Below are positions 17,601 through 57,114 of a DNA stretch of 64,000 nt, one piece after another (position 1 is the first letter of the stretch; each line of letters begins with the position of its first letter). The DNA comes from Parelaphostrongylus tenuis (lineage: Eukaryota > Nematoda > Chromadorea > Rhabditida > Metastrongylidae). The translations under genes and the position numbers were made by a program. The notes beneath the pieces are model-generated. The model saw only the letters and a program-made list of their open reading frames with translations, was not told the origin of the DNA and searched no databases. The stretch spans positions 1 through 64,000 of the forward strand of contig JAHQIW010000690.1 in assembly GCA_019055375.1 (NCBI GenBank), given 5' to 3'.

Positions 17601-17605
17601 GTATG
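11600..17605. repeat. Higher-order repeat part of the minisatellite
   Basis: Variant units recur in a fixed order. A cassette with TATGGGGTGTGTCC followed by GTATGCGTTATGCAG recurs near 14,973, 15,443, 15,748, 16,127 and 16,466, about 300-470 bp apart. At the right end, a cassette with a TGTCTGTATG variant recurs at about 17,071, 17,221 and 17,431, spaced 150 and 210 bp, both multiples of 15. Multi-unit blocks have therefore been copied as units. Confidence 0.75.
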
Positions 17606-18145
17606 TTCCATGATTGCTCTAAGTGTTCCAATATCTAAGTCTTCTCATAAGCTTTCATGCTAGAGCAATAAACACGTTGTTCACCAAAAAGAAGTATTTA
17701 AATTGCTTGGCAACACTATTCAGTGTGTGCGCCACTAGCCAGAACATATTTCTGCCATCTACCACTTCTGCCATTTCCCCATTAAGATTGATTTCTGGGT
17801 TTATAAACGCAGTAAAAATTGAATAGATGGTGAACGCGGTAGCGAGTAATATTCTGTGTAGTCAATTTGTGTTCCAAACAATTTTAACTTCTTCATATAA
17901 CTGGGTGAAAATTTCGCGGATTTCTCCTTTTGCTATCATGCTTACCTTTTTATACATATGGTACGGTAATTATGACCCTTCAGAACTATTCTCAAGCTCC
18001 TGAAGCCTTGTTAGGCTCACACGAAAACTAATTAGGTCGTCAGAACGTAGTGACTACGAAGGCAAAGGTTCGCTTCCGTCGCTAATGCACTATTGATTGA
18101 TGATTTTCAGGATTAATATAGCAATTTAACAAATATCTGTTAACC
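17606..18145 (+). repeat. Block F, inverted copy of 63,400-63,930
   Basis: Starting with TTCCATGATTGCTCTAA directly at the end of the minisatellite, this stretch matches the reverse complement of 63,400-63,930 over about 530 bp with scattered substitutions. Shared landmarks include TATCTAAGTCTTCTCATAAG and AACGCAGTAAAAATTGAATA. The small ORF across it (17,623-17,826) has stops in the partner copy and no recognisable domain, so I do not call it a gene. Confidence 0.85.
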
Positions 18146-19961
18146 TGTTAACATACGGTGCACTCTGAATACAAAAATAGCTACAGTACTTCCAACTGTA
18201 TCGCCGTGTTGTATTGACAGCTAAAAAATTCAAATAAGAAGCTACATTATCGAAACTGAAAATGTGAGGGACAGACATAAAAATTCTTCCAAATATCTCT
18301 TGAAAATTGTCGAGTATAAACAACAGCAAGGTAAAAAAAATATACGTACATGAGCGACGACTGGTCAATAGGTGTGTATCACTTTCAAACAACCAGTTAC
18401 ACATGCATTGCTACACATATGGCAAAACATAACATGTACATCATTGCTTCCACCTCAAAAACTCACTTCAATACAATGATAAATTAGAAATAAAGTGATT
18501 AGTATATCAAGGAATAGGTGAGTATGAAAGGAAAACCAATCTACTGAACAGTAAGACTGTGCTTCTGCATACCTTTTATATAAACGACAACCAGCATACT
18601 GACATAAGAATGAACCGACCGGCTGACAAACTGATAGACACGCAGCTTTCACCGCATCTACAAGAACTAAATCTCCTGATCAGAGTGCAGTTTGGATATA
18701 TAGCTTTTCTTTTTTTCCGTGATCGACCCACTACTTCACTTAACTTTCTTGAATTCTGATTTAACGAAAAGAGCTGTTATATGAGAAGAATGCTATGGCC
18801 AGCAGAAGTTGTATCTATGGAAAATTGGTTTAAGCGAAAAAAACGAGATTTATGCAGAATATATTAAAACTTGTCATTTCAAAAGAGTCTTTATATCTGA
18901 TAAAAAATGCGCTAGCAACTGTTCAGCAACAATCGGTTTTTTCGCAGTTTAAACTTTTTACAGCTACAAGAAGTGCTCAATGTCACATTCGTTTCTTCTG
19001 ATTATTCACTTAGGTTTTTTTCTCATGTGTTCCTCTTGATTAGATGTTCAACCTTGAAATTATAATTCGAAATTGAAGCCGATAAAAAATTTCACTAAAT
19101 CAAACTAAAATACTCCATACTGTAGTTTTTTTTTGAAGCAAAAAAAATAACCGAGATGGTGAATGCAAGAATTCTTTGAAATGATCGGTCATGCAGGATT
19201 GCTTGTAGAGCAAATAAGCGCATTTTTAATAGTAGCCATGAGCGTGTTGTGGGAATCAGCAGCACATAAATAAGATGAATAGGTTCAGTAGTTGTGAAAG
19301 TAGCAACGATTGAATCAAAATTGGGAGTGATGGAGAAATTCGGATTTAACTTAACATGATACAAAAAAATTTTAAGGAATCTGGTCCGTTGTTTACTGTC
19401 AAACATCGATTCGTTCTGTTGCAATTGCGATCGCCACCACCTTTCTGTCACAACCAACGACGATGACGACAGGTGTTTAGTGGAAACCGGCTAAAGAGGC
19501 GATGGACAACGTCGGATGAGATGCAAATGAGTTCCACTTCATTGAGTTTATCAACGCAACATTCTGCAGTTATCTGCTGAAGAAAAAGTGAAGGAAGGAA
19601 GTAGATAGATACTTTTTTTATTGAAAACTAAATACTTGAAAGCTTCGTAAATCGGGCAAAAATCTGCCCAAACCAATATTCATGATGACTGGTATTATGT
19701 TCCTAGGAATCTTATATACCTTGTGCAATGACTGTAATATTCAAGCAAAATTCTTTTTATTTAGCCGCTTTCAACGGTTGGACGATGCTAAAGATGTACC
19801 TAATGATGTAGAGTGTTGTGCAAACTTGTGCGTCAGCTGGGATGTACGCAAACCATAGATTTTTTGCCAGATTGATTCCACTAAACACTTTGAAAATTAA
19901 TATGTGAAGGTCGTGATAGTTAGAATATTTGCATAGTTATTTGCCCTGATGTAGCTCAGTA
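18146..19961. other. AT-rich intergenic stretch without recognised features
   Basis: I see no second copy in the window and no protein similarity. Several poly-T and poly-A runs occur. The short ORFs here (for example the minus-strand one at 19,095-19,457) lack recognisable motifs. Confidence 0.5.
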
Positions 19962-20552
19962 ATTACTTCTTTTCAATTTTATCACTTTATTTAACCCATG
20001 GTACAGTTTTCATTTCGTCGAAGTGGTCCCAATGCTTCCAACATTAGTCATCTCCTCCCTTGCTTGAGCTTTCATCTTCTTCACGAATGTCGTAGAATAC
20101 TGAACGAGCACTCTTCCTCGTAATCTCGAAGATAAAATGGCTGAAAACATTCCGTGGGCGTTCGTTATTGATTGCAGAAGGGTACTGAAAGACAGTGAGG
20201 ATTTACACCCTCGTCGATTTTCGTCAAGCATTATTAGCCACTCACGACTCTGAGAGCAGGTTTTTTCAGCAAAATAAGAGCGAGATAAGAGAAAAAAACG
20301 CGGTTTTATGAGACATGATTTTGCTTTTGAATGTCAGGGCGTTATAAAGGAATATTTTAGAGAATTGGCGAAGTGGGACGGTATCATCAAGTCTAAACTT
20401 TCGAATGGGTACCAACATTCTTGTGAAAAATTTCTTGCACCCTGAAATCACCACATTCTAAGTGCCGTCATTCGCTAACAAGAAAGTTTAAAAAACTAGA
20501 GATTTTCTGCTCTCGATCTCAATTCGCAAGACAACGAGGTATAAAAGGGCTT

Positions 20553-20633
20553 GGTGGGCCTTGGGCGCATTACCGAACCATCGACAACGCATGTGTGACA
20601 GGATACTTCTAACCACTGCGCTACAAGCGCCCC
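20553..20633 (-). repeat. tRNA-derived SINE head
   Basis: On the minus strand the sequence begins GGGGCGCTTGTAGCGCAGTG, giving a pol III A-box-like TAGCGCAGTGG. A B-box-like GATGGTTCGG follows about 40 nt downstream. It cannot fold into a full cloverleaf with a 7-bp acceptor stem, so it is a SINE head, not a tRNA gene. The downstream body runs to about 20,000 and matches 47,069-47,735. Confidence 0.65.
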
Positions 20634-20770
20634 ACAAAGCAACATACTAGAGCAAGGCACTGATAGAAAGCAGCTTCTTTGATATTTGTAGTTTAGTAGT
20701 ATAAACCATCTATAGATGGCTGCTGTTAGCTTTGACACCTAGTATCACAGAAAGAGTGATCGCTAAATAG

Positions 20771-20848
20771 GAGCCGCGGTAGTGTAGCGGTCAACACGCA
20801 CTCCCGTAAAAGGTAAAATACGGGTTCGACTCCCGCTCTAGCTGAAGG
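20771..20848 (+). repeat. tRNA-derived SINE head with perfect B box
   Basis: GGTAGTGTAGCGG (20,778-20,790) fits the A box and GGTTCGACTCC (20,823-20,833) is a canonical B box inside a 4-bp T arm. The acceptor arms do not pair along their length, so this is a tRNA-derived element. The diverged partner in block G' is at 46,865-46,932 on the other strand. Confidence 0.7.
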
Positions 20849-22261
20849 TTTTCCAGAAAACTTAATACTACTGAAGATATTGTTGCTGATGATTGATTGT
20901 TGACGCCTCAAAAATTCTCCTTCAACAAAACTTCGACATGCAGTAAGAAATATTTATCGCAATTATTTCTGCTGGTGTTATGGAAGTATGTGACCGAATA
21001 GACTGCGAAGTAATCAAAACCGGCACCTTTCCTCAGACGATAGGTGATAAAGAAACGATCCCTCCCACTGGACAAAAACTTTCATAAAAGTGTTAGTGAT
21101 CATTCAAAAGCTCAAATCTCTAGCTACTGCCGTACGTGGCCGATTTAGTAGAAGCCTTTTAATAACGCTCCAGCGAAAGGAAAACTTTTGTGTTTTACAT
21201 GAGGCAAAATCCTTGCTGGACAAAGTCCTCTTTCAGAGTATTGGTAATCATTCGACAGCGTAAGTCTCCACAATTCAAAAGGTGTGCCTGTTTATTGGCA
21301 AAACCGTTTCACTGCAGAGTACCGGGGAAAATATGATCGAGTTTCACATATGCGGGCATCTGCTTCTCGGTTAGCGTGTAAGCTGGATATCTGGTGGCCG
21401 TAGATTTGATACAGCGTTCCGCCACCTATCGATCAACCCTGCGGAGGCGACTCACATGTGGAATGCAATCCTTGTTATTTATTGACGATTTCTTCTTCAC
21501 TTTAAAGAAACTTCAAATAAAGAGTATGACTGAATCTGACACTACAAAACTTCACCTGCACGTTCAGATGTTCTTCGTGCTTTTGGTGAAGTAACAGTTG
21601 AGACGCGTGGCCGGTGTTACCATAATTTTGTTCTGAATGTTACGGAGTTATAACACTGAAAAATCCTTTAGAAGAAGGAGCACATAACCCAGTAGCCTGA
21701 GATTCAGGTTTTCTAATGATTACTGACATTCTTATCAGAAATTCTTGTTAGACGAAAGGGGTCGTTTCTTCACTTGTTCCCGATAACAGAGACGCATCGA
21801 AAATCATCCTGTGCTTGACGCCATCGATACATAGATTTGACAAATTTTTTTCTTCTGAACTGATGTTGATGTTTGGCTAAGTGGTTTATGAACAACCTGA
21901 TCTTTCCAAGTTCTGAACAAAGCAAAACCGTCGAAATGTCAGCTCATCAAGTAAATCGTACTATGACAATCTGGCAATTACCTTAGAAAAAAAATTTATA
22001 TATTTTTTATAGATGCATAGTCGACAACGAGATTGCTTGTGATATCGCAAATCCAGCTGGACATAAAGACTTGCCGATGGCATCTTCGCTTTTAGGAACG
22101 TCACCCTCACCAATCCCTAACTTGAAAAGGCAAGAATTCATATCCTGCCTGAAATCAGATCTTCAGAATTGGTTGAATGGAATGTCTAGACACTCATAGT
22201 TGTGTTTTGATTTTGTCATTCGACAAGCAGTGATTCTAAAGAATTCGTTGTCAATCCCTTA

Positions 22262-25020
22262 ATAAGTAGAGGTATATTGCCTTGCAAGAGACTGGCTGAA
22301 CGAAATGGCACCATGTCACTGTGAGTCGTTAACGACAATAATAGTAGACCTGATTAAAGGCTCAAAGCATGTTATTAGACTACTAGGTTGTCAAAATACA
22401 TTATTTTCTTTTGCTGATGATGATTCTTGAGGCTTTAAAAGACCAATATTGGTAATGAGTGGAGCTGGGATTTTTAAGAAACGATCTGAAAACTGTACGA
22501 ATACTGTCTTGACTTCGCAAGTAGCTTAAGTTGTTATTTCTTGCTTGTTTTGTGCCTAAATACTTGTTTTGTGTTTCACAAAAATTTGTACGTATTGGCG
22601 ATTATGCTTGCCTCGTCTGATCCACACGCTCCACCAGTTACCCTTTATAGAAGAGAAGGAGAGTTGTAGAGTGTCAACACATGGCAAAGTCAATTGTTGC
22701 CAGAATTCATATAGTTGATAAGACGCAGTTGCCATTTATTATTTATTTGAACATTATCTTTCTCTCGATTGTTTTTAAAACCTTGTTTTGAAGTTTGATG
22801 TACTTTGTTGGAAGGCAATGTCTGAATAAATTTGGGTATTTATCTGATAGACACCGATAAATGAATACTTGACTTCAATTGCTGGACAAGAATTTTTCTA
22901 TAGGACTGCTAGTTATCTTGAAAACTCAAATCTCGAGCTAAAACCGTACATGGGTGGCCTTTCAGAACGCTTTTTTAAAACACTGTATCCAAAAGAAAAA
23001 AGTTGTAACACACCTTCAGCGAGTTGTTGCCTTTCACGCGTATAATTTGCTGGAAGTACAAAAGCATACGAAATTGTAAAGGAAGTTTTGTAGTAACTGA
23101 GTCAATCGCTTTATATGGAGTTTCTTGAAAAGCGGAGAAAGAATTCTCAATTGAAAACAAGATCGTCCAACACATCTAACCCGTATCGATCGCTCGTCCG
23201 AATTTGCTTTCTCGGCCGTGAGTTGGCCGTTGAATAAGCCCGTCGAGTATGTGACGCTCGATCTTATTTTCCCTGCTTCAGTGCAGAGAAACTGTCATTC
23301 CCAATAACTAAATATAGTGTTGGATTTAATGAAACCTACGCTATCGAATGTCTGCTAATAGTCTAAAGAAAGAGCTTAGCGTACGGAGGTGCAAAGCACA
23401 AATTTCTCTTTCTTCTACAGCGTTATTGAGGAAGCTTTTTTGAAGAACAAACATACTTTTATGTTCATCAAGACTCCTGTTGTCCAAGGAGTGCTAGCAC
23501 TAAAGGAAGGAGCCCTGTCCAGCAAAATTATGTGAGATAAGGAAAAAAAACGCATGATCGTGTGAAACGTAATTTCATTTTGAATTTTACAGCGTTTGGA
23601 AGGGTGTTTCAAAAACTGGTCATGTATAGTTCTAGCACAAATTTAAGCTTTAGAGTGACTACTGATAGTCGTAAGAAAAACCTTGTCTAGTGAATAAGGC
23701 CGGATATTTATTTATCGCTGTCTGAGATATAAGTACGCAAATAAGTTATGACACCTGCGTGTCTTCAATTTGGAAGACTCGGCAATATATCACTTTGTCA
23801 GGTCATAACATTCTGTCTCTCCCTCCTTAATACGTAGAACGACTGCTGGGGCGTCTGGCTTAGAAGAGACAAGCGAAATTGCCGAAACGTACGTAAACCA
23901 AGCACGCAACAAACTTCAAAAAGGCCGAAAAGTTTATTAGAGTGAATCAAATTTCAGAACGAGGTTTTACAATCAGTCGATCAAAAGCAATGTTTAACTC
24001 TGTTCATTGTAATTACAGACTGAGGGAAGTCGTCTGCTACATCTAACGCTAAATTATGGTCGGCGTTGAAGGATCGAAATCCGACACTAACACAACAATA
24101 ATGGAACATCTAGCTGGATCAGATAGTTCATTTGGAACAGAAACTAGTTATAGCAGTAAAATTCAGTGTTTAGATGCTTGTACACCTATTTATAACAATT
24201 CATTTTTTTCCTCATATACACTGTTTCTTTGTTCTATCCATGTTCCAAACTTTGCCTATATCTGAACACTCTGCTAGTTGTTTCTCAGATCGCACCTTGT
24301 CAAGATCAGTAAATTGGAACAGTTCAGTGTTTAAACTCTCTTCCTTTGTTATTGTCATGTTCCAAAGCAGTCTATGTACGCCGTTTTCTTATCTGCAAAT
24401 TAACATGTAAAAATTCTGGACATGTCAGCTTACACGACATTGTTACATTTTATCATCGCTTTAATTTCCTAGCAAGTCAGCGTTTTTTAAGATCTTGAAG
24501 AATAAATTCATTTGCAACCAATAAGATATCCAATCAAGGTCGGGTTCACAACTACCTAATATTCATATGCCATGAATAAGTTTGCCTAGTACAGTGGCTC
24601 TTGTCAATTACATAGGCAAAAGATAACTCCTTGTCTGTCAACACGTGATTCAGGATGAGACATATCGGCAAAATAAAACCTTATCATCTTCAAAAAATCA
24701 CTTCCGGATGCTAAATTCCATAAATTCCACTTCTCTATTCTTTCAGTCAGCTTCAGTTTTCCCCATAGTATCATCAACCCTACGGAAACGTTGACAATAC
24801 AACTTATCTTGACGTTTATTCGATTCCCAACATTCTCCACTAAATCTCTCAAACCTCATACTCTGGAATCTGTATAGGACTTGTCTCGATAGGCTGACTT
24901 TCTCAATATCATTGCGAAGCTCCCCTATCTCAGTGATCCAGGGAAAATAGTTCGACCGTTATTGAGTGATAAAGACCACGTAGCCATTACCCCTCAGTCG
25001 CAGCCTACTAGCATTAACAA
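22262..25020 (+). repeat. Block A, first part (copies at 32.4-35.6 and 52.7-57.1 kb)
   Basis: This stretch matches 52,840-56,400 in direct orientation and 33,120-35,480 in reverse complement, with gaps. Landmarks are GGCACCATGTCACTGTGAG near 22,300, the GCGGAGAAAG motif near 23,137, and AATTCATTTGCAACCAATA near 24,505. A recurring module reads roughly TAGTAATCATTCGAAAGC followed by CTCAAATCTC and a CCGTACATGG phrase. It appears at about 21,100, 22,900, 30,810, 34,200, 34,890, 46,020, 46,590, 53,520, 55,150, 59,140 and 59,860. No conserved coding frame was seen. Confidence 0.85.
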
Positions 25021-25029
25021 TTAGAAACC
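25021..25029. repeat. Left copy of putative target-site duplication
   Basis: TTAGAAACC precedes the hammerhead array and TTAGAAAACC follows it at 28,341-28,350 (one extra A). The uninterrupted copies of this block near 33,120 and 56,375 show only one such phrase. Confidence 0.55.
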
Positions 25030-25086
25030 TTCAATATAATTCCAAAAAAAGAATGATTTAAGCTCAAAAAAGGGGTTGGTAAGCCA

Positions 25087-25134
25087 GGGTCATACACCGG
25101 TGTTTCGGAGGTTCGTCCTCCTCATCAGTGACCC
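25087..25134 (-). ncRNA. Hammerhead ribozyme, leftward copy 1
   Basis: On the minus strand: stem I 5' arm GGGTCA, core CTGATGA, stem II GGAGG and CCTCC around the loop ACGAA, then GAAA. A short stem III follows (ACA with TGT around CCGG), the GTA cleavage triplet, and the stem I 3' arm TGACCC. All stem I and stem II pairs are Watson-Crick. Confidence 0.9.
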
Positions 25135-25357
25135 CCGCCCCACATTCAGCCCTGCATTGAAGCAAGGAGGGTGGCGTATGTGGTGATGGCACAGTGTACT
25201 ATGACACTGTACCATCACCACCTCTCAGTCGATAGATTTTTGCTGTTAGATCAAAACTATATCAAAAGATCGACTGTTTTTGAAACCCCCAAAAAAACAT
25301 TCAATATAATTCCAAAAAAAGAATGATTTAAGCTCAAAAAAGGGGTTGGTAAGCCCA

Positions 25358-25405
25358 GGGTCATACACCGGTGTTTCGGAGGTTCGTCCTCCTCATCAGT
25401 GACCC
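25358..25405 (-). ncRNA. Hammerhead ribozyme, leftward copy 2
   Basis: Identical in core and stems to the copy 271 bp to its left. The predicted cut lies between GTA and TGACCC. Confidence 0.9.
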
Positions 25406-25628
25406 CCGCCCCACATTCAGCCCTGCATTGAAGCAAGGAGGGTGGCGTATGTGGTGATGGCACAGTGTACTATGACACTGTACCATCACCACCTCTCAGT
25501 CGATAGATTTTTGCTGTTAGATCAAAACTATATCAAAAGATCGACTGTTTTTGAAACCCCCAAAAAAACATTCAATATAATTCCAAAAAAAGAATGATTT
25601 AAGCTCAAAAAAGGGGTTGGTAAGCCCA

Positions 25629-25676
25629 GGGTCATACACCGGTGTTTCGGAGGTTCGTCCTCCTCATCAGTGACCC
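25629..25676 (-). ncRNA. Hammerhead ribozyme, leftward copy 3
   Basis: Identical in core and stems. It is the last copy before the switch of orientation at 25,839/25,840. Confidence 0.9.
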
Positions 25677-25839
25677 CCGCCCCACATTCAGCCCTGCATT
25701 GAAGCAAGGAGGGTGGCGTATGTGGTGATGGCACAGTGTACTATGACACTGTACCATCACCACCTCTCAGTCGATAGATTTTTGCTGTTAGATCAAAACT
25801 ATATCAAAAGATCGACTGTTTTTGAAACCCCCAAAAAAA

Positions 25840-25872
25840 GGACGAACCTCCGAAACACCGGTGTATGACCCT
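25840..25872 (+). ncRNA. Truncated hammerhead at the array's orientation switch
   Basis: The rightward arm starts inside stem II (GGACGAACCTCC), followed by GAAA, stem III and the cleavage triplet. The CTGATGA half of the core and the stem I 5' arm are absent, so this copy should be inactive. The preceding leftward arm stops in its A-run, so the junction is not a simple palindrome. Confidence 0.85.
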
Positions 25873-26093
25873 GGGCTTACCAACCCCTTTTTTGAGCTTA
25901 AATCATTCTTTTTTGGAATTATATTGAATGTTTTTTTGGGGGTTTCAAAAACAGTCGATCTTTTGATATAGTTTTGATCTAACAGCAAAAATCTATCGAC
26001 TGAGAGGTGGTGATGGTACAGTGTCATAGTACACTGTGCCATCACCACATACGCCACCCTCCTTGCTTCAATGCAGGGCTGAATGTGGGGCGG

Positions 26094-26141
26094 GGGTCAC
26101 TGATGAGGAGGACGAACCTCCGAAACACCGGTGTATGACCC
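26094..26141 (+). ncRNA. Hammerhead ribozyme, rightward copy 1
   Basis: First complete rightward ribozyme, with core CTGATGA and GAAA, 6-bp stem I and 5-bp stem II. Confidence 0.92.
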
Positions 26142-26278
26142 TGGGCTTACCAACCCCTTTTTTGAGCTTAAATCATTCTTTTTTTTTGGAATTATATTGA
26201 ATGTTTTTTGGGGGTTTCAAAAACAGTCGATCTTTTGATATAGTTTTGATCTAACAGCAAAAATCTATCGACTGAGAG

Positions 26279-26320
26279 GTGGTGATGGTACAGTGTCATA
26301 GTACACTGTGCCATCACCAC
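26279..26320 (+). other. 18-bp hairpin found in every monomer
   Basis: Representative copy. The arm GTGGTGATGGTACAGTGT pairs with ACACTGTGCCATCACCAC across the loop CATAGT, with one G:U pair. It sits about 45 nt upstream of each ribozyme. The hairpin is kept in the diverged relative near 32,185-32,225, which suggests it matters for RNA structure, or that it is simply old. Confidence 0.85.
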
Positions 26321-26365
26321 ATACGCCACCCTCCTTGCTTCAATGCAAGGCTGAATGTGGGGCGG

Positions 26366-26413
26366 GGGTCACTGATGAGGAGGACGAACCTCCGAAACAC
26401 CGGTGTATGACCC
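26366..26413 (+). ncRNA. Hammerhead ribozyme, rightward copy 2
   Basis: Complete; 272 bp from the previous copy because of a longer T-run in the spacer. Confidence 0.92.
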
Positions 26414-26636
26414 TGGGCTTACCAACCCCTTTTTTGAGCTTAAATCATTCTTTTTTTGGAATTATATTGAATGTTTTTTTGGGGGTTTCAAAAACAGTCG
26501 ATCTTTTGATATAGTTTTGATCTAACAGCAAAAATCTATCGACTGAGAGGTGGTGATGGTACAGTGTCATAGTACACTGTGCCATCACCACATACGCCAC
26601 CCTCCTTGCTTCAATGCAGGGCTGAATGTGGGGCGG

Positions 26637-26684
26637 GGGTCACTGATGAGGAGGACGAACCTCCGAAACACCGGTGTATGACCC
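26637..26684 (+). ncRNA. Hammerhead ribozyme, rightward copy 3
   Basis: Complete; 271 bp from the previous copy. Confidence 0.92.
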
Positions 26685-26907
26685 TGGGCTTACCAACCCC
26701 TTTTTTGAGCTTAAATCATTCTTTTTTTGGAATTATATTGAATGTTTTTTTGGGGGTTTCAAAAACAGTCGATCTTTTGATATAGTTTTGATCTAACAGC
26801 AAAAATCTATCGACTGAGAGGTGGTGATGGTACAGTGTCATAGTACACTGTGCCATCACCACATACGCCACCCTCCTTGCTTCAATGCAGGGCTGAATGT
26901 GGGGCGG

Positions 26908-26955
26908 GGGTCACTGATGAGGAGGACGAACCTCCGAAACACCGGTGTATGACCC
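26908..26955 (+). ncRNA. Hammerhead ribozyme, rightward copy 4
   Basis: Complete; the following spacer has altered T-run lengths, which shift the monomer ORF. Confidence 0.92.
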
Positions 26956-27178
26956 TGGGCTTACCAACCCCTTTTTTGAGCTTAAATCATTCTTTTTTTT
27001 GGAATTATATTGAATGTTTTTTGGGGGTTTCAAAAACAGTCGATCTTTTGATATAGTTTTGATCTAACAGCAAAAATCTATCGACTGAGAGGTGGTGATG
27101 GTACAGTGTCATAGTACACTGTGCCATCACCACATACGCCACCCTCCTTGCTTCAATGCAGGGCTGAATGTGGGGCGG

Positions 27179-27226
27179 GGGTCACTGATGAGGAGGACGA
27201 ACCTCCGAAACACCGGTGTATGACCC
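27179..27226 (+). ncRNA. Hammerhead ribozyme, rightward copy 5
   Basis: Complete; the distance to the next copy is 270 bp. Confidence 0.92.
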
Positions 27227-27448
27227 TGGGCTTACCAACCCCTTTTTTGAGCTTAAATCATTCTTTTTTTGGAATTATATTGAATGTTTTTTGGGGGTTT
27301 CAAAAACAGTCGATCTTTTGATATAGTTTTGATCTAACAGCAAAAATCTATCGACTGAGAGGTGGTGATGGTACAGTGTCATAGTACACTGTGCCATCAC
27401 CACATACGCCACCCTCCTTGCTTCAATGCAGGGCTGAATGTGGGGCGG

Positions 27449-27496
27449 GGGTCACTGATGAGGAGGACGAACCTCCGAAACACCGGTGTATGACCC
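27449..27496 (+). ncRNA. Hammerhead ribozyme, rightward copy 6
   Basis: Complete; core and both long stems unchanged. Confidence 0.92.
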
Positions 27497-27719
27497 TGGG
27501 CTTACCAACCCCTTTTTTGAGCTTAAATCATTCTTTTTTTGGAATTATATTGAATGTTTTTTTGGGGGTTTCAAAAACAGTCGATCTTTTGATATAGTTT
27601 TGATCTAACAGCAAAAATCTATCGACTGAGAGGTGGTGATGGTACAGTGTCATAGTACACTGTGCCATCACCACATACGCCACCCTCCTTGCTTCAATGC
27701 AGGGCTGAATGTGGGGCGG

Positions 27720-27767
27720 GGGTCACTGATGAGGAGGACGAACCTCCGAAACACCGGTGTATGACCC
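27720..27767 (+). ncRNA. Hammerhead ribozyme, rightward copy 7
   Basis: Complete; 271 bp from the previous copy. Confidence 0.92.
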
Positions 27768-27990
27768 TGGGCTTACCAACCCCTTTTTTGAGCTTAAATC
27801 ATTCTTTTTTTGGAATTATATTGAATGTTTTTTTGGGGGTTTCAAAAACAGTCGATCTTTTGATATAGTTTTGATCTAACAGCAAAAATCTATCGACTGA
27901 GAGGTGGTGATGGTACAGTGTCATAGTACACTGTGCCATCACCACATACGCCACCCTCCTTGCTTCAATGCAGGGCTGAATGTGGGGCGG

Positions 27991-28038
27991 GGGTCACTGA
28001 TGAGGAGGACGAACCTCCGAAACACCGGTGTATGACCC
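27991..28038 (+). ncRNA. Hammerhead ribozyme, rightward copy 8
   Basis: Complete; 271 bp from the previous copy. Confidence 0.92.
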
Positions 28039-28261
28039 TGGGCTTACCAACCCCTTTTTTGAGCTTAAATCATTCTTTTTTTGGAATTATATTGAATGTT
28101 TTTTTGGGGGTTTCAAAAACAGTCGATCTTTTGATATAGTTTTGATCTAACAGCAAAAATCTATCGACTGAGAGGTGGTGATGGTACAGTGTCATAGTAC
28201 ACTGTGCCATCACCACATACGCCACCCTCCTTGCTTCAATGCAGGGCTGAATGTGGGGCGG

Positions 28262-28309
28262 GGGTCACTGATGAGGAGGACGAACCTCCGAAACACCGGT
28301 GTATGACCC
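28262..28309 (+). ncRNA. Hammerhead ribozyme, rightward copy 9 (last)
   Basis: Complete. The array ends 31 bp downstream in GAGCTTAAA, so this ribozyme has its cleavage site but no full monomer after it. Confidence 0.92.
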
Positions 28310-28340
28310 TGGGCTTACCAACCCCTTTTTTGAGCTTAAA

Positions 28341-29060
28341 TTAGAAAACCCTTGCAAATGGTGGATGCGAGTTAACGAATAGGGTGTAAAAAGCGCCTGC
28401 ACAATGTGATACATGTCATATTAGCCCATGAAAGGTTACACTAAACTTCCAAACTATTAATAGATTGACGAATGGTTCATCACTGAAGCAATTTTCTTGC
28501 AAAAGTCATATGCAAATTTTTTTCATCTAATGGTGCAAAAAATTTCAATGATACAACAGATTTACTCATTTCATCGATTACATCGCTCATATATGATTCC
28601 GAATTAGAGATCTTCAGAAGGAGAAGTTTATATGGTTTCTCTTATGAATAGCGATTTTTGACACTTAAAACACTAGAGCATATCCAGACACAGCTCACCA
28701 AGACTTTGGAGAGGGCTTAGATAGGCCTTCTTCCATACTTATTGCTTGAAGTGATTTTTGTTTTTCTGATTATTTTTGCCATCACAGTCTATCATTGAAA
28801 TCTTGATGGCGTAAACTCATAATAGAAGGCGTCTCAAATTTGTCGAGGCAGGTACAATCGGTTGGGAAAGAAAATGCCTTTGTGAAAGTCTCTTCGGCGA
28901 AACCAATTTTTTTTTGCAACACTGAAGTTTGCCTTGAAGCTAATTTTTATTGTACATAGACAAGATTTTCATTGGAACACGGCCTAATATTGGCGCCGTT
29001 CGATCGAGAGAGGCTCACTTCAGAACGGCACAAATCGTTTTAAACCTTTGAACACTCTCT
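28341..29060 (+). repeat. Block A, second part, resuming after the array
   Basis: It begins with the right copy of the putative target duplication (TTAGAAAACC, 28,341-28,350). It continues the block A homology to 56,380-57,110 (direct) and 32,420-33,130 (inverted), for example the phrase ATATGCTCTA/TAGAGCATATCC and a CAGTCTATCATTGA segment near 28,785. Confidence 0.85.
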
Positions 29061-30910
29061 GTAATACCAAAGAAGATTATTTCTTCGCTTCGAGTGTTTT
29101 CTTGAAACCGCGGCTCTAATTTCAATATGCCAGATACTCATTTTTGAGCTACGCATGTCATGTGGTCTGTTAAATGGGCTGGCATATAGAGCATGATACA
29201 CGTGTTTCGATCTTGAAAGCTTAAAAATGATTATCTGCCATATTTGAATTTAAGCTGTGATCATGAAAACACTCGAAACGAAAGATATGATATATTGAAT
29301 TTATTAGCCAAGAGCAATAACTTGACCGTCTGCTTTACTGAAGTCTAAAAAGATGCTCATATCAAAACGTCATTTACAAAATGATACCAATAAGGAATAC
29401 TGCCAACCTGTTCAACAGCTGTGCAATAGTGATAAAGAAGCAGGTCAAAGTGAAAAAGTCACAAATTTACATGATTTTCTCAGGTCCATACGGCGATACA
29501 GAGTCGCACAAACAGGATGCAATCGCCAGTGTCTAGAATTCTGAAAAGATGCATATTGAAGCATGCCGAGGTTAATAGACAGTCGGTCTTGGGCATTGTT
29601 GCAGAGAGTTTACGAAGACTTTACTGCAAAGGAAACAGCACTATTGTAATGGGGCAGCGGAATACGAAAAGAGCATTTACAGTGCTTGTCAACAGTTCAC
29701 CAATTATGAGATATGGCAACGACTCTTCGAAGTCCGGTCGGAACTTCTGCTTCCAGGAAAAGCAGAAATTTCACAATTCGAATGGCAATGGATGAGGGAG
29801 GAGTTGCGTGAGTAATCACGATTTCAGTAGGACAGCAGGATCTACTGGGCGATTGGAGAAGATTCACACTATATGGACCTCACAAAGGCATTATGAGAGT
29901 GGAGGACATTACATTGTCCAAAGCTCATTGACTTCGAAAGAGCTGCAAACTCAATTGAGAAATGGAAGCCACTGTCAAAGTTTTGCACAGCATGGCAACC
30001 ATTATGAAGTACACGAAGATTAATAGCGAGGTCTATAACAACTCACCCTCTGGTGTTTTATTATTGTGTTACAACATTTCCATGGACGTGAAACGGAAAT
30101 TTCGATGATGAACATTCGCAAGCACCGGCTAACGCCTAATTTCGAGACGGTTTGTAAAGATTAGATAAAGGTAGCTCAAAACTAAGTAGCGTCGAATCAC
30201 ATAATCTCTTCACTGTTGGTAGGAGGTGACGAATGGTCTAGAGAGACTGCGAAGTATCATTGAAGCAAAAGGCCTGTATTTGTGATAAAGTAAAAGCACT
30301 GCGAGTTTCACAAACGAGCAATCTAGTGTACCTTTATAACAGTTAACACGTACGTTTGCTGGTGCTTACTCATTTCACTCTGAAACGAAACAAGGACAAA
30401 TAATACAGATAGCAGCAGAAAACACTTCTCCAGATCTAACAGAATTTTTAAAGAGTAGCAGATAAACCGCACTTCTGAGACACATTCGCTCGAATTTTAC
30501 ACGAGTCCAGATGAATTGCAAAATATGACAAGCGTTTTTTAAATCTAATAAGTTTACATTAATACCCGTTGCGGTGTGGTTCTCGAGGTAGTGAACAAAA
30601 GTCTCGCTCGATGAATCCATTGAGACTTGTTAAACATCGCTCAGTTATCTCAATAAATAAACGAAACAATCGAACAAGACGGCGAGGTCATGACTGCCAA
30701 GTTCGTCAGCTATATTCTAACAACTTGTCTTAACTTTTCCGGCTGTTTTCCGTTATCCAGCAAAAAATTAAAAGAGGGCCTTTTTTGCTGTTCAACAACT
30801 TCTATAAAAGTATTAGTAACTATCTGAAAGCTCAAATCCCGAGCGACTGCTGTACGCGCTCACTTCTCGAAGAGACCTTATAGCGCTATGATGAAAAAAT
30901 GTTTCATTGT
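28780..30910 (+). repeat. Block D, inverted copy of 59,780-63,400
   Basis: The reverse complement of 59,780-63,400 aligns here, but the right copy is longer because of a mariner insertion and extra hammerhead-family sequence. The 63-codon ORF at 29,353-29,544 starts MLISKRHLQND and has a counterpart at 61,853-62,050 on the minus strand. The frames diverge after about 20 residues, so coding function is doubtful. The stretch at 29,138-29,242 is a reversed relative of the MITE-like element at 62,601-62,711. Confidence 0.8.
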
Positions 30911-31009
30911 CGACCGTTAATTTTCACTCCCATATCGTCCCATTATGATGTTCGCATGACGTTTTGTAGGCTGGCAGTGAATAGTTTTGGCTAAATTGTA
31001 TCGCCTTGT

Positions 31010-31206
31010 CGAACCACTCTTCTTACGTCAATGGTGATGTTGTTGTAAAATGAAGATATTTTGGTCGTGAAATCTATATAAAGCTCACGAAGGGTCATCA
31101 TGTACCGAGTAGGGACGCCCTGGTTATCCAGAGCCTCTATAACCGCTTCCCTTTCCACTGAATCAAAGGCTTTCTTCAGATCGATGAAAGTGAGACAGAG
31201 TGGTTG
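31010..31206 (-). pseudogene. RTE-type LINE reverse transcriptase fragment
   Basis: The minus-strand translation has CLTFIDLKKAFDSVE, the reverse transcriptase motif with the first catalytic aspartate of the palm, and about 50 residues later VRRVVRQGDTI, the conserved turn before the YADD region. It is cut on both sides and has no endonuclease or downstream palm motif. The family is inferred from these motifs and from matching RTE C-terminal fragments elsewhere in the window. Confidence 0.8.
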
Positions 31207-31234
31207 TTTGGGTTTAATATAATAATATTATAAG

Positions 31235-32030: not shown

Positions 32031-32161
32031 GTGCAAAATGGGCGTCACTAGTGCAAATTGACCCATGGCATCGTTTGTTTCTAAAAACTCGCAATAAACA
32101 TTCAATAAAAATTTTAAAAAATGTTCAGAACCTTACCCGTGTTTTTCTTTAACCAGCCGAG

Positions 32162-32400
32162 ATTTATCGACTGAAAAGTAATGATGGCACAGTGTTATTG
32201 TACACTGTGCCGTCACCACATCCTCCTTCCTCTTTGCTAAAATGCAGGGCTCAATGTGGAGCGTGAGTCATTGACGATGAAGGGGGGACCCCCCGAAACA
32301 CGCGTGTATAGCCCTGACGTACTAATCTCAAGCAAGGCTTTGAACATTCTTAAAAATCAATATTGAATGTTTGCTGCGGGGTTTTAAAGCAGTCGATGCC
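32162..32400 (+). repeat. Diverged single copy of the 271-bp hammerhead element
   Basis: It matches the monomer over its length: GATGGCACAGTGT hairpin, AATGCAGGGCT, ribozyme region 32,264-32,316, then AATGTTTGCTGCGGGGTTT. The core reads TTGACGATGA instead of CTGATGA, so C3 is lost and cleavage is unlikely, although GAAACACGCGTGTA remains. It lies at the outer end of arm B; the mirror copy is 57,115-57,260. Confidence 0.8.
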
Positions 32401-35400
32401 ATGGATCAATTATAGAGTGTTCGAAACTTTCAAAACGAATTGTGCTGTTTTCAAGTGAACCTTTCGCTATCGGACGGCGCCAATATTCAGCCGTGTTCAA
32501 ATGATAATCTTGCCTTATCACAGTAAAAACTAGATTTAAAACGAACTTCAGTGTTGCAGAAAAAATTTAATAACGTCGAAGAAATTGTCATATAGGCATT
32601 TTTACTTCGGACCAAGTGCACCTGCCTCGACACATTTAAGGCGCCGTCTATCATGAACGTGGTTTACACTATCAGGATTTCAATGATAGAGTGTAATGGC
32701 AAAAAAGTCAAAAGAAGGAAAACACATTGAGCAATAAGTATGGAAGAAGGCTTACCTAGGCCCTCTCCAAAGTCTACGTGAGCTGTGTCTGGATATGCTC
32801 TAATGCTTTGCGTGTCAAAAACCGCTATTAATAAGAGAAACCATGCATACTTCTCCTTCTCAAGATCTTTATTTTTGAATCATATATGAGCGAATAATTG
32901 ATGAAATGAGTAAATCTTTTGCATTATTGAGATATTTTGCACAATCAGATAAAAAAAATTCGCACATGACTTTTACGAGAAAATTGCTTCCAGTGATGAA
33001 CCAATTGTCAATCTACTAATATTTGGATGTTTATCGCAACATTTCATGGACTGTTATCACATGTATCACATTGTGCAGGCGCTTTTTGCACCCTATTAGT
33101 TAACTCGCATCCACCATTTGCAAGGGTTTTTAGCTGTTTAATGCTAGTAGGCTGCGATCAAGAAGTATTGGCTACGTGGTCTTTATCACTCAATATCGGT
33201 CCAACTATTTTCCCTGGATGAATAAGATAGCGGAGCATCGCAATAACATTTGAGGATGCAAGCCTATCGAGACAAGTCCAATACAGGATCTAGGGTATGA
33301 GGTTTGAGAGGTTTAGTAAAAAATATTGGGACTCGATTAAAGATCAAGATAAGTTGTACTGTCGACGTTTCAGTAGGATGCTGTTAGTATGGGAAAAACT
33401 GAAGTTGACTGAAAGAATAGAGAAATGAAACTTATACAATTTAGCAGCTGGAAGTGATCTTTTGACAACGATGAAACTTTATTCCCGACCTTGATTGAAT
33501 ATATTATTGGTTGCAAATGAATTTATTCTTCAATATCTTGAAGAACGCTGAATTATCAAGAAATACAAGCGACGATATCATGTAAACTGACATATCAAGA
33601 ATTTTAACATGCTAATTTGCATATAAGACTACGGCGTACAGACTATGAAAGTTTTGACACTTAATCAGTGCCAATTTGCTATTCGTGGCATGGTACGATT
33701 TAAAATACAACCAGCAGAGGTAGCGGAGCTTCTCAGATATAGGCAAAGTATGGAACATGGATAGAGCAAAGAAACAGTGTATGTAAGAGAAAAAATGAAT
33801 TGTTATGAATAGGTGTACAAGCAACTGAACGGTGAATTTCACAGCTATAGCCAGTTTCTGTTCTAGGTGAACCATCTTATCCAGCTACATGTTCCATTAT
33901 ACTCATGCTGAATTTCGGATTTGGATTCTTCAACGTCGGCCATTATTTAGCGGTAAATGTAGTAGGCGATCTTCCTAAGTCTGCAATAACAATCACAGTT
34001 TAGACATTGCTTTTTCGTTGAATGATAGTAAAGCCTCATTTTTAAACTTGATTCACTCTAATAAACTTTTCAACCTTTTGAAGTTTGTTACGTAAGTGGC
34101 TTACATACTTTCGGCGACTTCGCTTGTCTCGTCAAAGCCAAACGCCCCACCAGCCGCCGTACATATTAGGGAAGGGGAGACGTCTCAGTAGTTATTCTAA
34201 AGCTCAGATCTCTGACTAGAGCCACACATGGCCAGTTTTTGATAGGCTCTTCTAAAAGCTGCAAGACTCAAAATAAAATTATGCTTCGCACGACCGTACG
34301 CTTTTTCCCTTATCTCATAATTTTGCTGGACAAGGCCCCTTTCTTGAGTGCTAGTACCCCTCGGATAGCACGAGTCACGATGAACTCAAATGTGTGTTTT
34401 TTTGGGATAAGCTCTTTTGGCAGTGCTGTAGAAGAAAGAAAAATTTGTGCTTTACATCTCGCTGGGCAGAGCCCTTTCTTAGACTATTAGTAGATATTCG
34501 ATAGTGTAGAATTCACTAATTACAATACTGTACTTAGTTTCTGGGAAAAATCATTTTCTGCATTGAAGCAGCTAAAATAAGATCGAGCTTCACATACTCG
34601 GCGGACTTAATTACCGGCCAACTCACGGCGAGAGGGCGGAGGCGGACGATAAATTGATACGGGGTTAGATGTGTGGGGCACAACCTGTTTTCGATTGAGA
34701 ATTCTTCCTCCGCTTTCTAAGAAACTCCGTACAATACGACTGACTCAGATGCTACGAAACTTCCTCTACAAATTCGTATGCTTTTCTCTTCCAGCAAATT
34801 AAACGCGTAAGAGGCGTGAAAACTCGCAGAGGGCGTATTACAATTTTATTTTGGATCTTACACTGTTTTTAAAAGGTATTCTAAGAGGCCACCCATGTAC
34901 GGCTTTAGCCCGAGATTTGAGTCAAAAGATAATGTCTAAATAAATATTAAGTGACAACCGCGTCTTATCAACTCTATGAATTCTGGCAAAATTTGACCTC
35001 GCCACATCTTGATAATCTGTTTCCCCATCCCTTCTATGTAGGGTAACTGGTTGAGCGTGTCGCTCTGACGAGGTGACGTAAATGCCGAAACGTATTTTTT
35101 GTGGAACACAAAATGAGCATTTGGAGACAAAACAAGGAAGGAATAATAACATAAGCTACATGCAAAGTTAAAATAGCATTCGTATATTTTTCAAATCGCC
35201 TGGCAAAAATCACACAACTTCAGTCATTCACCAATATTAGCCTCTCAATACCTCAAGAATCATTATAAACAAGAAAGAACAACGTGTTTTGATAACCTGG
35301 TACTATAATAACAACATATTTAGAGCCTTTAGTAGGTCTTTTATGGCGCTTATACAGAGTTAGACAGCTGTTTCGTTGTTAAGGGCTCATAGTAACATGG

Positions 35401-35600
35401 CGGCGCCATTTGGTTCAGCCAATCTTTTGCAAGAGGATACACCTCTACGTATTAAGGGCTTGACGCCAATTATTTATATTACTGCATATCGAGTGACAAA
35501 TTCCTAGACATTGCAGTGAATGCCTCGAGCTCTCATGGCTGGTCGAAAGAATCATATATTTACTCTCGACTGTTTGTCTAGGCTCGTTCAAAAACTATAA
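32400..35600 (-). repeat. Block B, inverted relative to blocks A and C
   Basis: The reverse complement matches 22,262-29,060 (without the hammerhead array) and 52,740-57,110 (without the 953-bp insertion). It gives the empty-site sequence GCATTAAACAGCTAAAAACC (reverse complement, near 33,120-33,150) for the array's integration point. Confidence 0.85.
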
Positions 35601-37166
35601 TAATCTGATAGCATGTCTCGAGTATTGAGGAGGTCTGGTATGGCACTTATGCAGTGCTACACGGCTGTTTCGCCGCAACGGGCTCATGAACAGAAGGATT
35701 GGGAATTGCCTGAACCGAATGGCACCTCCTACCGATGAACTTCAACGACGAAACAGCTGTCTAGCACTTTATAAGTCAGACCTCATGACTAAAGGCTTAA
35801 AGCATCTTATCAGACTATCGGATTATCATTGTTTTTAAGCGAATTCTATAAAAATTGTCGAAAGTAAAGATATTTCAATAAGTTGATGCATTTGTGCTGC
35901 TTTTGTTGCACTTCTTCAAAGAATATCTCTCTATTTGGAAACATCAGCTCAGTATGAGTCGGTCTCACATACCTTGCAAAAGGCTCCTGCTCACAAATGC
36001 TTTTAAGGAAAGGAATAATGCATTCCTCCACCATCTGCAATGCATTAAATACTTCTACAGTGAAAGGTATAAAAATAATGATTGGAAAATTCAACAAAAA
36101 ATAACGAACAAAGTGCCAAGGATACCCACACTTTAAGTTGCGTAGAAGAATGCTCTGCTGTTGATAAAAATCAACACATTTCTCATTGAAGCCGCAGGAG
36201 ATTCCTCCAATTTATTTTCTAATGTCTAAAAATGACTTTACTAATAAGACAGATTACTCATGACCGAAGCAACGTGCATATCAAGATCCATCACAGCGAC
36301 TGAGTACAACTGCCGAATATTCTTTTCGGACTACAGAATTAGCTTGTTAATAAACAGCCAATTATATATGATTCAGTTGCTGTTGCCAACCGTATTTTCA
36401 GCATCGTTTTTTAATCTCCAAACTGTATCAAATGAATAGTGTTTCTTGCAAAGCTTACAAATTGACAAACCTTAATTGTCGAGTGGAATAGGTTCGCCTG
36501 TCACGCGTAGTCTCTGGCTTCATTTCGCGGCCAATTCATCGCTTGAATTCCATGGTCACAGGAATATAGGGCAATGAAGTTAGGTGGAGTCGGTTATGTA
36601 TCAGGATGAGGAACTAGGAGCCTCTCCAAGCAAAGGGCGAGACGGGTTTCCACAACCGAAGTGTTTGAACGAGTGAAATGGCAAGCATATATAAGATATC
36701 GACAGAGGGCGTGGCTTGTGATACTAATCAATGGATAGCAATAAACATGTAATTGACGAGTTAAGGGGGAGGTTATAACAGTTATGAACAACGGAGAGCA
36801 TCCGCTAAGCGAAGCATGGCCAAGATTGCTGCCTACACACATGTGAAGCGCCTGGTGCAGACCAAAGTGACATTTAAATGCCGCCAAAAACAACGTAAAG
36901 AAAGAGTAAACGTGTAATATGGGGGACTAGTGATAATTCGTTGAACAACTCCTAAGCCGTTGACTGATACTCTGCCTTATTGTAGTCTTCTAGATAACTC
37001 GTTTGTCAAACATCACTTGATCGCTGCCGGGCTCAGAAGTATTACTTAGATCGCAAAGTGATGAGTTCTTGGCACCCATAGACAAAGCAACGTCTATAAG
37101 CGTCGCACTCGACCCCTTTTTAGAGTTCCCCTTAGCAGGACTTTACCTTACCTCATATGGCGCTAT

Positions 37167-37500
37167 TTATACTTGCACTCCTGCGGAATAATATTCCTCT
37201 ATCACCTGCCGTCCTGTTGATCTCCGATTAATTCCAGGGGCACCAGCAACACTCGCTCCAGGGATTCGCTGAGCATCATATCTTTCTTCCATGCCGTTGG
37301 TGAACAAATCGGACCACTCGGTAGGTGTGGGGAGGTAGTCTTCTTGTTGAGCGCCTGACATCCCGAGAAATCCAGTCGATAACAGCTCTAGTTCATCAGT
37401 TGTCGTTGGAGTGCATTACGTGTTCGACCCACCTTATTTTCGATATCCTAATGTGTAGAATGGCATCGCTGACCTTCAATCGATGATGTTGGCCACACTT
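37167..37500 (-). pseudogene. RTE-type LINE C-terminal fragment
   Basis: Minus-strand frames give pieces such as ISKIRW, AVIDWISRDVRRST and EWSDLFTNGMEERYDAQRI, matching the C-terminal region of nematode RTE reverse transcriptases. Several frameshifts and stops separate them. Its inverted partner is 49,495-49,830. Confidence 0.75.
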
Positions 37501-37668
37501 CGATCCCTTATCCCGTTTAATACGTTGGGTGTTAAAACGCTAAAAACAGGATAATAGTACCACGAGACAAACTAGACTCATGTAAGATATTATTGATTGC
37601 TGTCTGTTCAAAAAATGAACTTATCGCAGAAAATGTTAGTGTATTATTAGTTACTGTTACAGTACACG

Positions 37669-37905
37669 TGGCGCCGTGGCCAAGTGGTTGTAGTGCTCCT
37701 CGCGGTGCGTCTGGAGTGGAGTTCCATCCGCAAACTCTTTCCGGCAGCCAACAACAACGCCCTATGGAACGTCACAACCAGGCTGTGCTCAAGATTGCAA
37801 GTAGACTTGCTCAACCAGTATTCTGGACGCACAACAAAAAGAGGAACACGATTTGAATGATAGAAATAATGGGATCCGCACTGTGAAGGATCAATAAAGT
37901 GTCTA
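37669..37905 (+). repeat. tRNA-derived SINE with long body
   Basis: The A box is TGGCCAAGTGG at the head. The body has the phrase CCGGCAGCCAACAACAACGC and ends near GATCAATAAAGTG. The minus-strand partner at 49,066-49,322 belongs to the inverted E/E' pair. Confidence 0.7.
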
Positions 37906-37949
37906 AAGTTTTGGTACTGTTGTTAGGCTCAAACCACCTTTCACGGATA

Positions 37950-38110
37950 GATCTCTAGGAATGCTTAAAACTTTACCGAGGCTGTTACGTCAGCCATACA
38001 GGTGTTTCGGACGTATTCCTTCTTCATCAGTGGCCCATGCCCCACAATGAGCTCTACTTTGTAGAAGAGCGGGAGACGTATATGGTGGTAGTAGGGGCAT
38101 TAAACATTGT
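37950..38110 (-). repeat. Decayed hammerhead element, minus strand
   Basis: The minus strand at 37,991-38,036 keeps the core CTGATGA and GAAA, a 5-bp stem I (GGCCA with TGGCT, one G:U) and the GTA cleavage triplet. Stem II (AGAAG against CGTCC) pairs poorly. It faces the plus-strand relative that starts about 30 bp further right, so the two form an inverted pair. Confidence 0.65.
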
Positions 38111-38129
38111 TAGAGACTTATTGAATGTT

Positions 38130-38420
38130 TATAACGAGATTAAATGACCGTCGATGAGGTGGATCAAGTTACATCTACCAGCCGCAATAGATCGACAAAA
38201 AATGGTGATAACAGAATGTCATTGTACGTCGGGCTGCCACCACATACGTCTCCCTCTCTGCTACAAAGTAAAGCTCAGTGTGGGGCATGCGCCACTGATG
38301 AAAAGGGCGACACCCCCAGAAAACTTGCGTGGCTCTACCGTAACAACCTCGGGAAAACTTTAAACATTCTTGCGGACTATATTGAACGTTTATAGCAAAG
38401 TTAAAAGACAGTCGATGAGG
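38130..38420 (+). repeat. Decayed hammerhead element, plus strand
   Basis: It keeps GTCGAT and ATCGAC arms, the CCACCACATACG phrase of the monomer, and CTGATGA at 38,295-38,301. GAAA is at 38,319-38,322, but the sequence after it (ACTTGCGTGG) lacks the normal cleavage triplet, so self-cleavage is unlikely. Confidence 0.7.
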
Positions 38421-38489
38421 CGGATCAATTTATAACTACCCTTCACGGATATATTATCGAAATTTCGCAGTTGAAAGAAGGGATCCGGA

Positions 38490-48960: not shown

Positions 48961-49065
48961 GACTTCGGTCAAGAATTTGGATCCCCTCCCTCATTAGCGA
49001 GATTTCGGTAGTAAATCCGTGAAAGGCGATTTGAACGCTAACAGCAGTAATATAACATCAGACAC

Positions 49066-57110: not shown

Positions 57111-57114
57111 ATTG

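Follow-up and report, generated by a model that had tools for sequence, protein, structure and literature searches.

Several kinds of hammerhead-bearing repeat have been described in animals, and they provide the frame for a 271-bp repeat array at positions 25030-28341 of the 64,000-nucleotide stretch of Parelaphostrongylus tenuis DNA analyzed here (contig JAHQIW010000690.1, positions 1 to 64,000; hereafter the window). The published systems are cited from excerpts of the respective papers. The metazoan retrozymes that lack long terminal repeats (non-LTR retrozymes), known from coral, mussel and axolotl (Cervera and de la Pena 2020, PMC7229834), are there described as 150-450 bp repeats that carry a type I hammerhead, occur as anything from dimers to long multimers, have a guanine-plus-cytosine (GC) content below 50% and target-site duplications of over 4 bp, and possess a self-paired monomer and a short stem III closed by a tetraloop, in all of which the present array is like them. 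The hammerheads of the axolotl and newt repeats act as dimers, with a weak stem III and, in one axolotl group, a palindromic tetraloop (PMC7229834), and cleave best in that dimeric form, as is predicted for the present array; these repeats differ in length (330-350 bp) and in their vertebrate host, and the likeness is one of description. The Sm-alpha repeat of Schistosoma, also likened by description only, is a helminth repeat with a type I hammerhead, in a trematode host.

Penelope-like elements with pseudo-LTRs, as described from Adineta vaga (PMC3846280, in part), share the head-to-head inverted ends of the present arrays and have target-site duplications of 8-10 bp. Minimal type I hammerheads are present in Penelope elements, which have been proposed as retrozyme helpers (PMC7761336, PMC7229834); long interspersed nuclear elements (LINEs) are the other candidates for that role (PMC7229834), and the retrozyme repeats themselves are reported to show no motif that identifies the mobilizing enzyme (PMC7761336). 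Compared with the metazoan retrozymes as outlined in PMC7229834, regular head-to-head double arms, a 12-bp target-site duplication and a preferred outer end are features of the present arrays. We consider it probable that the feature in the window is a young, non-autonomous non-LTR retrozyme insertion, formed as two target-primed complementary DNAs (cDNAs) joined mid-way, probably with Penelope enzymes.

The inverted array and its insertion site

A scan of the whole window, on both strands, with a type I descriptor (stem I of at least four pairs, stems II and III of at least three pairs each) returned twelve complete and identical hammerhead cores, nine on the forward and three on the reverse strand, and no other copy. 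Their 42-base core string, CTGATGA-GGAGG-ACGAA-CCTCC-GAAACACCGGTGTA^TGACCC, occurs exactly twelve times in the window, with GGGTCA ahead of every occurrence; the first forward string starts at 26100 and the last at 28268, and the reverse strings lie at 25087-25128, 25358-25399 and 25629-25670. Where the two orientations meet, at 25839, there is a thirteenth hammerhead that is truncated within stem II. The array as a whole (25030-28341) is inverted and head-to-head, with three units pointing left and nine pointing right, and Tandem Repeats Finder divides it into two arrays of period 271, i.e., 25025-25839 (3.0 copies) and 25839-28341 (9.2 copies). Its parts are as follows, complete hammerheads being placed by the descriptor.

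25030-25838, reverse strand: left arm, three left-pointing retrozyme units (from unit position 67 to 63)
25839-28339, forward strand: right arm, some 9.2 right-pointing units (from unit position 245 to about 37; two further bases could also belong to the target)
25087-25134, reverse strand: hammerhead, left arm, outermost
25358-25405, reverse strand: hammerhead, left arm, middle
25629-25676, reverse strand: hammerhead, left arm, innermost
25839-25871, forward strand: hammerhead truncated in stem II at the head-to-head junction
26094-26141, forward strand: hammerhead 1 of 9; predicted cleavage after 26135
26366-26413, forward strand: hammerhead 2 of 9
26637-26684, forward strand: hammerhead 3 of 9
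26908-26955, forward strand: hammerhead 4 of 9
27179-27226, forward strand: hammerhead 5 of 9
27449-27496, forward strand: hammerhead 6 of 9
27720-27767, forward strand: hammerhead 7 of 9
27991-28038, forward strand: hammerhead 8 of 9
28262-28309, forward strand: hammerhead 9 of 9

A first-pass annotation, made from the letters of the window, had described a tandem 271-bp satellite with twelve identical type I hammerheads, free of lesions in every complete copy, and had likened it to metazoan retrozymes. The count and the intactness were borne out (twelve exact copies, the one at 25839 alone being truncated), the descriptor agrees with the annotated architecture and with the position of the predicted cleavage site, and the analogy to retrozymes gains support. 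The unit length also stands, the eleven full monomers measuring 270-272 bp with variation confined to T-run length and one G/A difference; the simple tandem layout does not, given the head-to-head inversion. The annotation had further attributed the identity of the ribozymes to recent spread, active selection or homogenization. Recent spread is upheld and active selection on the ribozyme is not, because the whole 271-bp unit is equally identical and the identity of the ribozymes shows only youth or homogenization.

With tandem units of 150-450 bp that each carry a type I hammerhead, a GC content of 44.3% and no coding capacity, the array has the make-up of a retrozyme; the open reading frame list of the window holds no frame of 110 amino acids or more within it, and the long frame for a reverse transcriptase with a GIY-YIG domain that would mark a Penelope element is absent from the array. 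The ribozyme strand of the unit contains T-runs of 6, 7 and 7 bases. Such runs would stop RNA polymerase III, and on this sequence feature transcription by polymerase II is the more likely. Each unit also holds a near-perfect long hairpin (e.g., 26278-26321), of which 80% identity is retained in an old relic at 32182-32222.

Copies of the flanking sequences that lack the array lie at 55960-56840 and, in inverted orientation, at 32678-33483, with 82-86% identity. At the filled site the array stands between ATTAGAAACC (left) and ATTAGAAAACC (right), a duplication of 10-11 bp with one indel, and the empty paralogs have a single such stretch each, altered at a few bases. The positions of these sites, and of older relics of the same family, are listed below.

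25020-25029: target-site duplication, left copy, ATTAGAAACC
28340-28350: target-site duplication, right copy, ATTAGAAAACC (longer by one A; its first two bases could also belong to the unit)
56382-56391, forward strand: empty site, paralogous repeat copy C
33125-33134, reverse strand: empty site, paralogous repeat copy B
32056-32411: old relic of the retrozyme family, with a minus piece (32056-32137) and a plus unit (32141-32411), its core decayed (TTGACGA)
57113-57266, reverse strand: old relic in repeat copy C, its place within the repeat matching that of the relic in copy B
37957-38440: old head-to-head relic (minus 37957-38091, plus 38100-38440)

Because the flanks recur empty in paralogs and the target stretch is duplicated, the whole double array looks like a single insertion, one much younger than the repeats that surround it. 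Satellite DNA would be expected at a fixed site and in arrays free of insertion scars; here duplications and empty sites were found, and the annotation's term 'satellite' gives way to an insertion that is one of many dispersed arrays. The relics are 70-77% identical to the unit in the longer BLAST pieces and 60-70% in lenient alignments, and their hammerheads are altered to an extent that varies between relics. By eye, the relic at 37957-38440 is flanked by a 14-bp direct repeat with one mismatch, ACC(T/C)TTCACGGATA, at 37936-37949 and 38438-38451.

The hammerhead motif and its predicted pairing

All twelve copies display the elements that define a type I hammerhead, i.e., CUGANGA, GAA(A), an NUH cleavage triplet and three stems with stem I open-ended. 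By the script's count stems I, II and III comprise 7, 5 and 4 pairs, which exceeds the minimum of a descriptor that, in 400.5 Mb of simulated sequence, scored by chance at a rate of 0.035 per 64 kb and that had 0 hits in 43,032 real bases outside the array and a minisatellite. Even with the twelve copies counted as one independent event, as is done for these chance statistics, the hammerhead motif is not a chance match. Motif scans of viral contigs and of genome contigs databases returned no match.

Folding, calculated without magnesium or tertiary contacts, favors an alternative pairing in a single 74-nt piece (-28.8 kcal/mol, with a stem III probability of about 0.01). When two such pieces are folded together, a double hammerhead results whose stem III, ACACCGGTGT, runs through 10 bp without a break, at -73.1 versus 2 x -28.8 kcal/mol, and the identical 10-bp stem III forms in a tandem dimer of whole units; in the fold, stem I continues beyond a small internal loop. 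The models suggest that cleavage would be performed by paired units rather than single ones, by way of this palindrome.

Sister arrays and a proposed mechanism of insertion

The 481.5-Mb assembly that contains the window was searched for further copies, and at least 295 unit matches were found in the best 40 of 993 candidates scored. For comparison of array structure, 39 further loci were taken from the best-scoring rows, which together with the window makes 40; L034 and L035 were dropped, their flanks being identical to those of L023 and L022, respectively, so that 38 distinct loci remain. Also left out of the counts are L001-L008, which overlap later loci, and a second block in L029, 2.6 kb from the counted one. 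Hammerhead segments within six edits of the motif were exact in 219 of 228 cases (39 fetched loci and window, duplicate loci included), and one array, in L009, has about 31 units.

The layout seen in the window recurs in most of these best-scoring loci. Thirty of the 38 distinct loci are head-to-head and none is tail-to-tail, with four in plus orientation only and four in minus orientation only, and the two arms abut or lie at most 362 bp apart (362 bp in L014). Direct repeats scoring 9 or more were present at the array edges in 22 of the 38 loci, with lengths of 9-18 bp and most commonly 12 bp (one of the 22, in L016, is a simple AAT repeat), whereas mismatched flank pairs, taken across all 40 loci, reached that score in 7 of 774 cases. 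Furthermore, the outer ends show a preferred place: exactly one outer end falls at unit positions 97-114 in 28 loci, both in none and neither in ten, with a probability of about 5e-18 if ends were uniform. The second outer end lies at 19-73 in 23 of the 28 loci with one end in that interval (including L009, whose contig stops on the left, so that this end is no true outer end), and the two outer ends are some 30-85 nt apart in 23 of 38 loci.

The inner ends of the two arms show no relation to one another, being at most 40 nt apart in eight of 30 loci, versus nine expected at random, and at most 10 nt apart in only three (L014, with its arms 362 bp apart, L028 and L043). A self-priming or fold-back model, with a palindromic junction, is disfavored by this lack of relation between the inner ends. 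Palindromes at inverted junctions are reported for Penelope copies in the excerpted account (PMC3846280); by the same counts no excess of them is indicated here, and the array, unlike Penelope, has no open reading frame. An optional 31-bp tail at one end of the Penelope pseudo-LTR (PMC3846280) does recall the asymmetry of the two ends of the present arrays (near 105 versus 20-75).

Taken together, the preference at the outer ends, the variability of the inner junctions, the outward-pointing arms and the staggered duplications suggest that two cDNAs were started from the outer ends and met mid-way. As a tentative proposal, to which we give somewhat less than even weight, animal retrozymes may move by double target-primed reverse transcription, in which both nicked strands prime at two preferred sites on the retrozyme RNA (probably a circle) and multi-unit cDNAs are joined mid-way, by a Penelope reverse transcriptase and GIY-YIG endonuclease; that process would leave as its signature multimers that point outward from a head-to-head junction and are flanked by 12-bp duplications, here in a nematode. 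In the reading considered probable for the window array, transcripts of the arms would self-cleave after GTA to yield 271-nt monomers with 5' TGACCC, most efficiently when the palindromic stem III (ACACCGGTGT) pairs between two units, and the monomers would be ligated into circles. The reverse transcriptase-endonuclease would nick both target strands about 12 bp apart, and both 3' ends would prime on retrozyme RNA, one preferentially near unit position 105 and the other near 20-75. Each cDNA would then copy several units from a circular (or linear multimeric) template, a circle or multimer being needed because the arms hold many units, and the joining of the two cDNAs at an inner point would leave outward-pointing multimers of near-identical units.

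A likely source of the enzymes is an abundant set of putative GIY-YIG Penelope-like elements of the same genome. At least 150 GIY-YIG matches were found (the best 150 of 1723 candidates scored, all listed above cut-off), with open frames of up to 902 amino acids, and among 22 adjacent pairs within 5 kb, transcribed by eye from the listing, 20 are head-to-head, two point the same way and none is tail-to-tail. In L039, pieces of reverse transcriptase (RVT_1, 21.4 bits, short of the cut-off of 29.6) belong to a degenerate copy, in which reading by eye also revealed a GIY-YIG segment and, in the 3' region, a minimal hammerhead (GGCT CTGACGA ... GAAAC GTT AGCC); this hammerhead recurs with few changes, again by eye, in 3' regions in L016 and L027. 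These minimal hammerheads escaped the scripted searches, since the descriptor demands longer stems; the pattern was negative for L039, L016 and L027.

Among other explanations the one that survives best, which we nevertheless regard as unlikely, is LINE-mediated twin priming, i.e., insertion of retrozyme RNA by a non-LTR retrotransposon with a 5' inversion that produces the head-to-head layout. Pieces of non-LTR reverse transcriptase are present in the window and in L035, and both the duplications of about 12 bp and the variable inner junctions fit such a process. However, 30 head-to-head loci out of 38 is a high proportion for 5' inversion compared with the rates of human LINE-1, no poly(A)-like tail was seen at the outer ends of the window array, and the head-to-head bias is common to the GIY-YIG frames of the same genome.

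It is considerably less probable that an autonomous Penelope element has the unit as its pseudo-LTR, so that the arrays would be solo or tandem pseudo-LTRs and no separate retrozyme would exist. The layout is that of Penelope pseudo-LTRs and hammerheads occur in both, but in L039 (the degenerate Penelope copy) and in L016 and L027 (the 3' regions) the hammerhead is the different, minimal one, and the 271-bp array in L039 and L027 has its own flanking 12-bp duplication. Moreover, arms that abut or lie so close together leave no room for a coding region, and between the two arrays of L029 there is no frame longer than 157 amino acids, for which reason an autonomous copy considered there was dropped. 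Weakest of all, and scarcely credible, is ordinary satellite DNA that grew and was homogenized by unequal exchange with the ribozyme as a passenger, since the near-identical units and the roughly 31 units at one locus that speak for it are set against arrays at no fewer than 38 distinct places, edge duplications in 22 of 38 loci, the empty paralogs of the window array, the identical unit in both arms and the head-to-head form of every inverted junction seen.

Several observations weigh against the insertion of a retrozyme by double target priming as proposed here. The loci compared are a non-random sample, the interval 97-114 was picked after the data had been seen, the minor arm is shorter than 100 bp in five of the 30 head-to-head loci, and the window array itself, like nine other loci, is without the preferred end near 105 (its ends are at 69 and 38). 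Inner ends are in excess at unit positions 1-50 (28 of 60, with 11 expected) and at 1-10 (6 of 60, with 2.2 expected), where position 1 is the 5' end from predicted self-cleavage; the region of excess lies just past the predicted cleavage site and includes two T-runs, at unit positions 23-28 and 44-50. Some templates may have been linear cleaved multimers, or synthesis may have stalled in these T-runs, and BLAST edges are, besides, imprecise; a circle is not required, because inner ends at 1-50 would also result if synthesis ran off the 5' end of such linear multimers. As to the helper, the GIY-YIG frames are putative Penelope-like elements, and a non-LTR reverse transcriptase fragment lies in the window at 30994-31227, so a LINE could act too.

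The remaining points of this kind concern Rfam, in which the annotation had expected a hit to the type I model (RF00163) on either strand; at three settings the array gave none. The whole window had no match at gathering scores, RF00163 not being called, and a search of 24900-28500 at an expectation value (E) of up to 1 returned no hammerhead. With a 101-base piece as query, the only models to align to the core were RF03152 (15.6 bits, cut-off 56.3) and RF00008 (14.4 bits, cut-off 48.5), in a search that reports only the best match per clan and may mask a weaker match to RF00163. Seven fetched loci, at E of up to 0.5, likewise gave no hammerhead call, either for the arrays or for the Penelope motifs of L039, L016 and L027, and base-pair covariation in the unit and four decayed relics was not above that of shuffles and is not used as support. 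The failure of the type I model is probably due to the short stem III (ACA/TGT, loop CCGG), and its gathering score is a library criterion rather than a chemical definition of a hammerhead. A covariance model built from the window's own copies recovers them by construction and is no independent test. Sub-threshold Rfam matches to microRNAs (MIR7723, mir-4446, mir-592 and others) were rejected, as they stem from inverted repeats and hairpins.

Neighboring features and place among known elements

Protein matches in the window support the nematode host named in the first-pass annotation. The reverse transcriptase fragment at 30994-31227, of non-LTR type, best matches Angiostrongylus cantonensis (76%) and Necator americanus (79%), followed by Haemonchus, Heligmosomoides and relatives, and Cu/Zn superoxide dismutase exons at 43330-43566 and 43730-44014 best match Angiostrongylus costaricensis (75%). 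All four of these genera are strongylid nematodes, and by these matches the host is close to Angiostrongylus. A further superoxide dismutase exon lies at 58622-58894, and with the exons at 43330-44014 there are apparently two genes.

Much of the remaining window is repetitive. A 15-bp minisatellite, TGCGGTATGTCCGTA, occupies 17.6 kb (10-17606), and several copies of a large repeat unit, some of them inverted and most with 70-85% likeness, lie at about 17653-30891, 32056-38730, 48644-57266 and 59803-63876. No long open frame is common to the large repeat copies, Pfam returned nothing above cut-off for ten long open reading frames of the window, and among six repeat-block pairs a marked coding periodicity was obtained only for 37252-37948/49015-49721. 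The repeat pieces 51127-51551 and 60348-61112 are 95-97% identical, i.e., younger than their surroundings, and a 191-bp tandem duplication lies at 60345-60726.

Other hammerhead-like sequences were also observed. A second hammerhead (62913-62956, stem I GCCCGA/TCGGGT) sits within repeats that have inverted copies, with a similar motif in L033, and the repeat around it recurs in L028, L013, L019, L031, L033 and others; L033 drew RF00008 at 25.4 bits (cut-off 48.5). A third hammerhead repeat family is present in L036 (4085-4132 and 4412-4459, head-to-head) and L015 (2296-2343), and the L036 and L015 hammerheads drew RF00163 below its cut-off (27.2, 26.2 and 23.8 versus 34 bits). Very old hammerhead-like relics occupy the same place in three repeat copies (23844-23916, 34081-34151 and 55215-55286), with E of about 3e-5 to 7e-7 under the window-built model.

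The metazoan non-LTR retrozyme is a known kind of element, and what is new here, as far as searched, is the nematode host and the regular insertion scar. Neither 'nematod' nor 'inverted' appears as a string in the main text of PMC7229834, 'nematod' is likewise absent from the main texts of PMC7761336, PMC3088659 and PMC6155905, and no paper reporting a nematode retrozyme or this insertion scar was found by title or abstract, in a search that left most subscription journals outside and is weak evidence of absence. With these arrays, apparently intact retrozymes are placed in a member of a parasitic nematode group. Which enzyme mobilizes retrozymes in animals has yet to be settled in the literature, and the arrays bear on this question, in that dozens of them in one genome share an insertion scar that is directly comparable with that genome's own Penelope copies.

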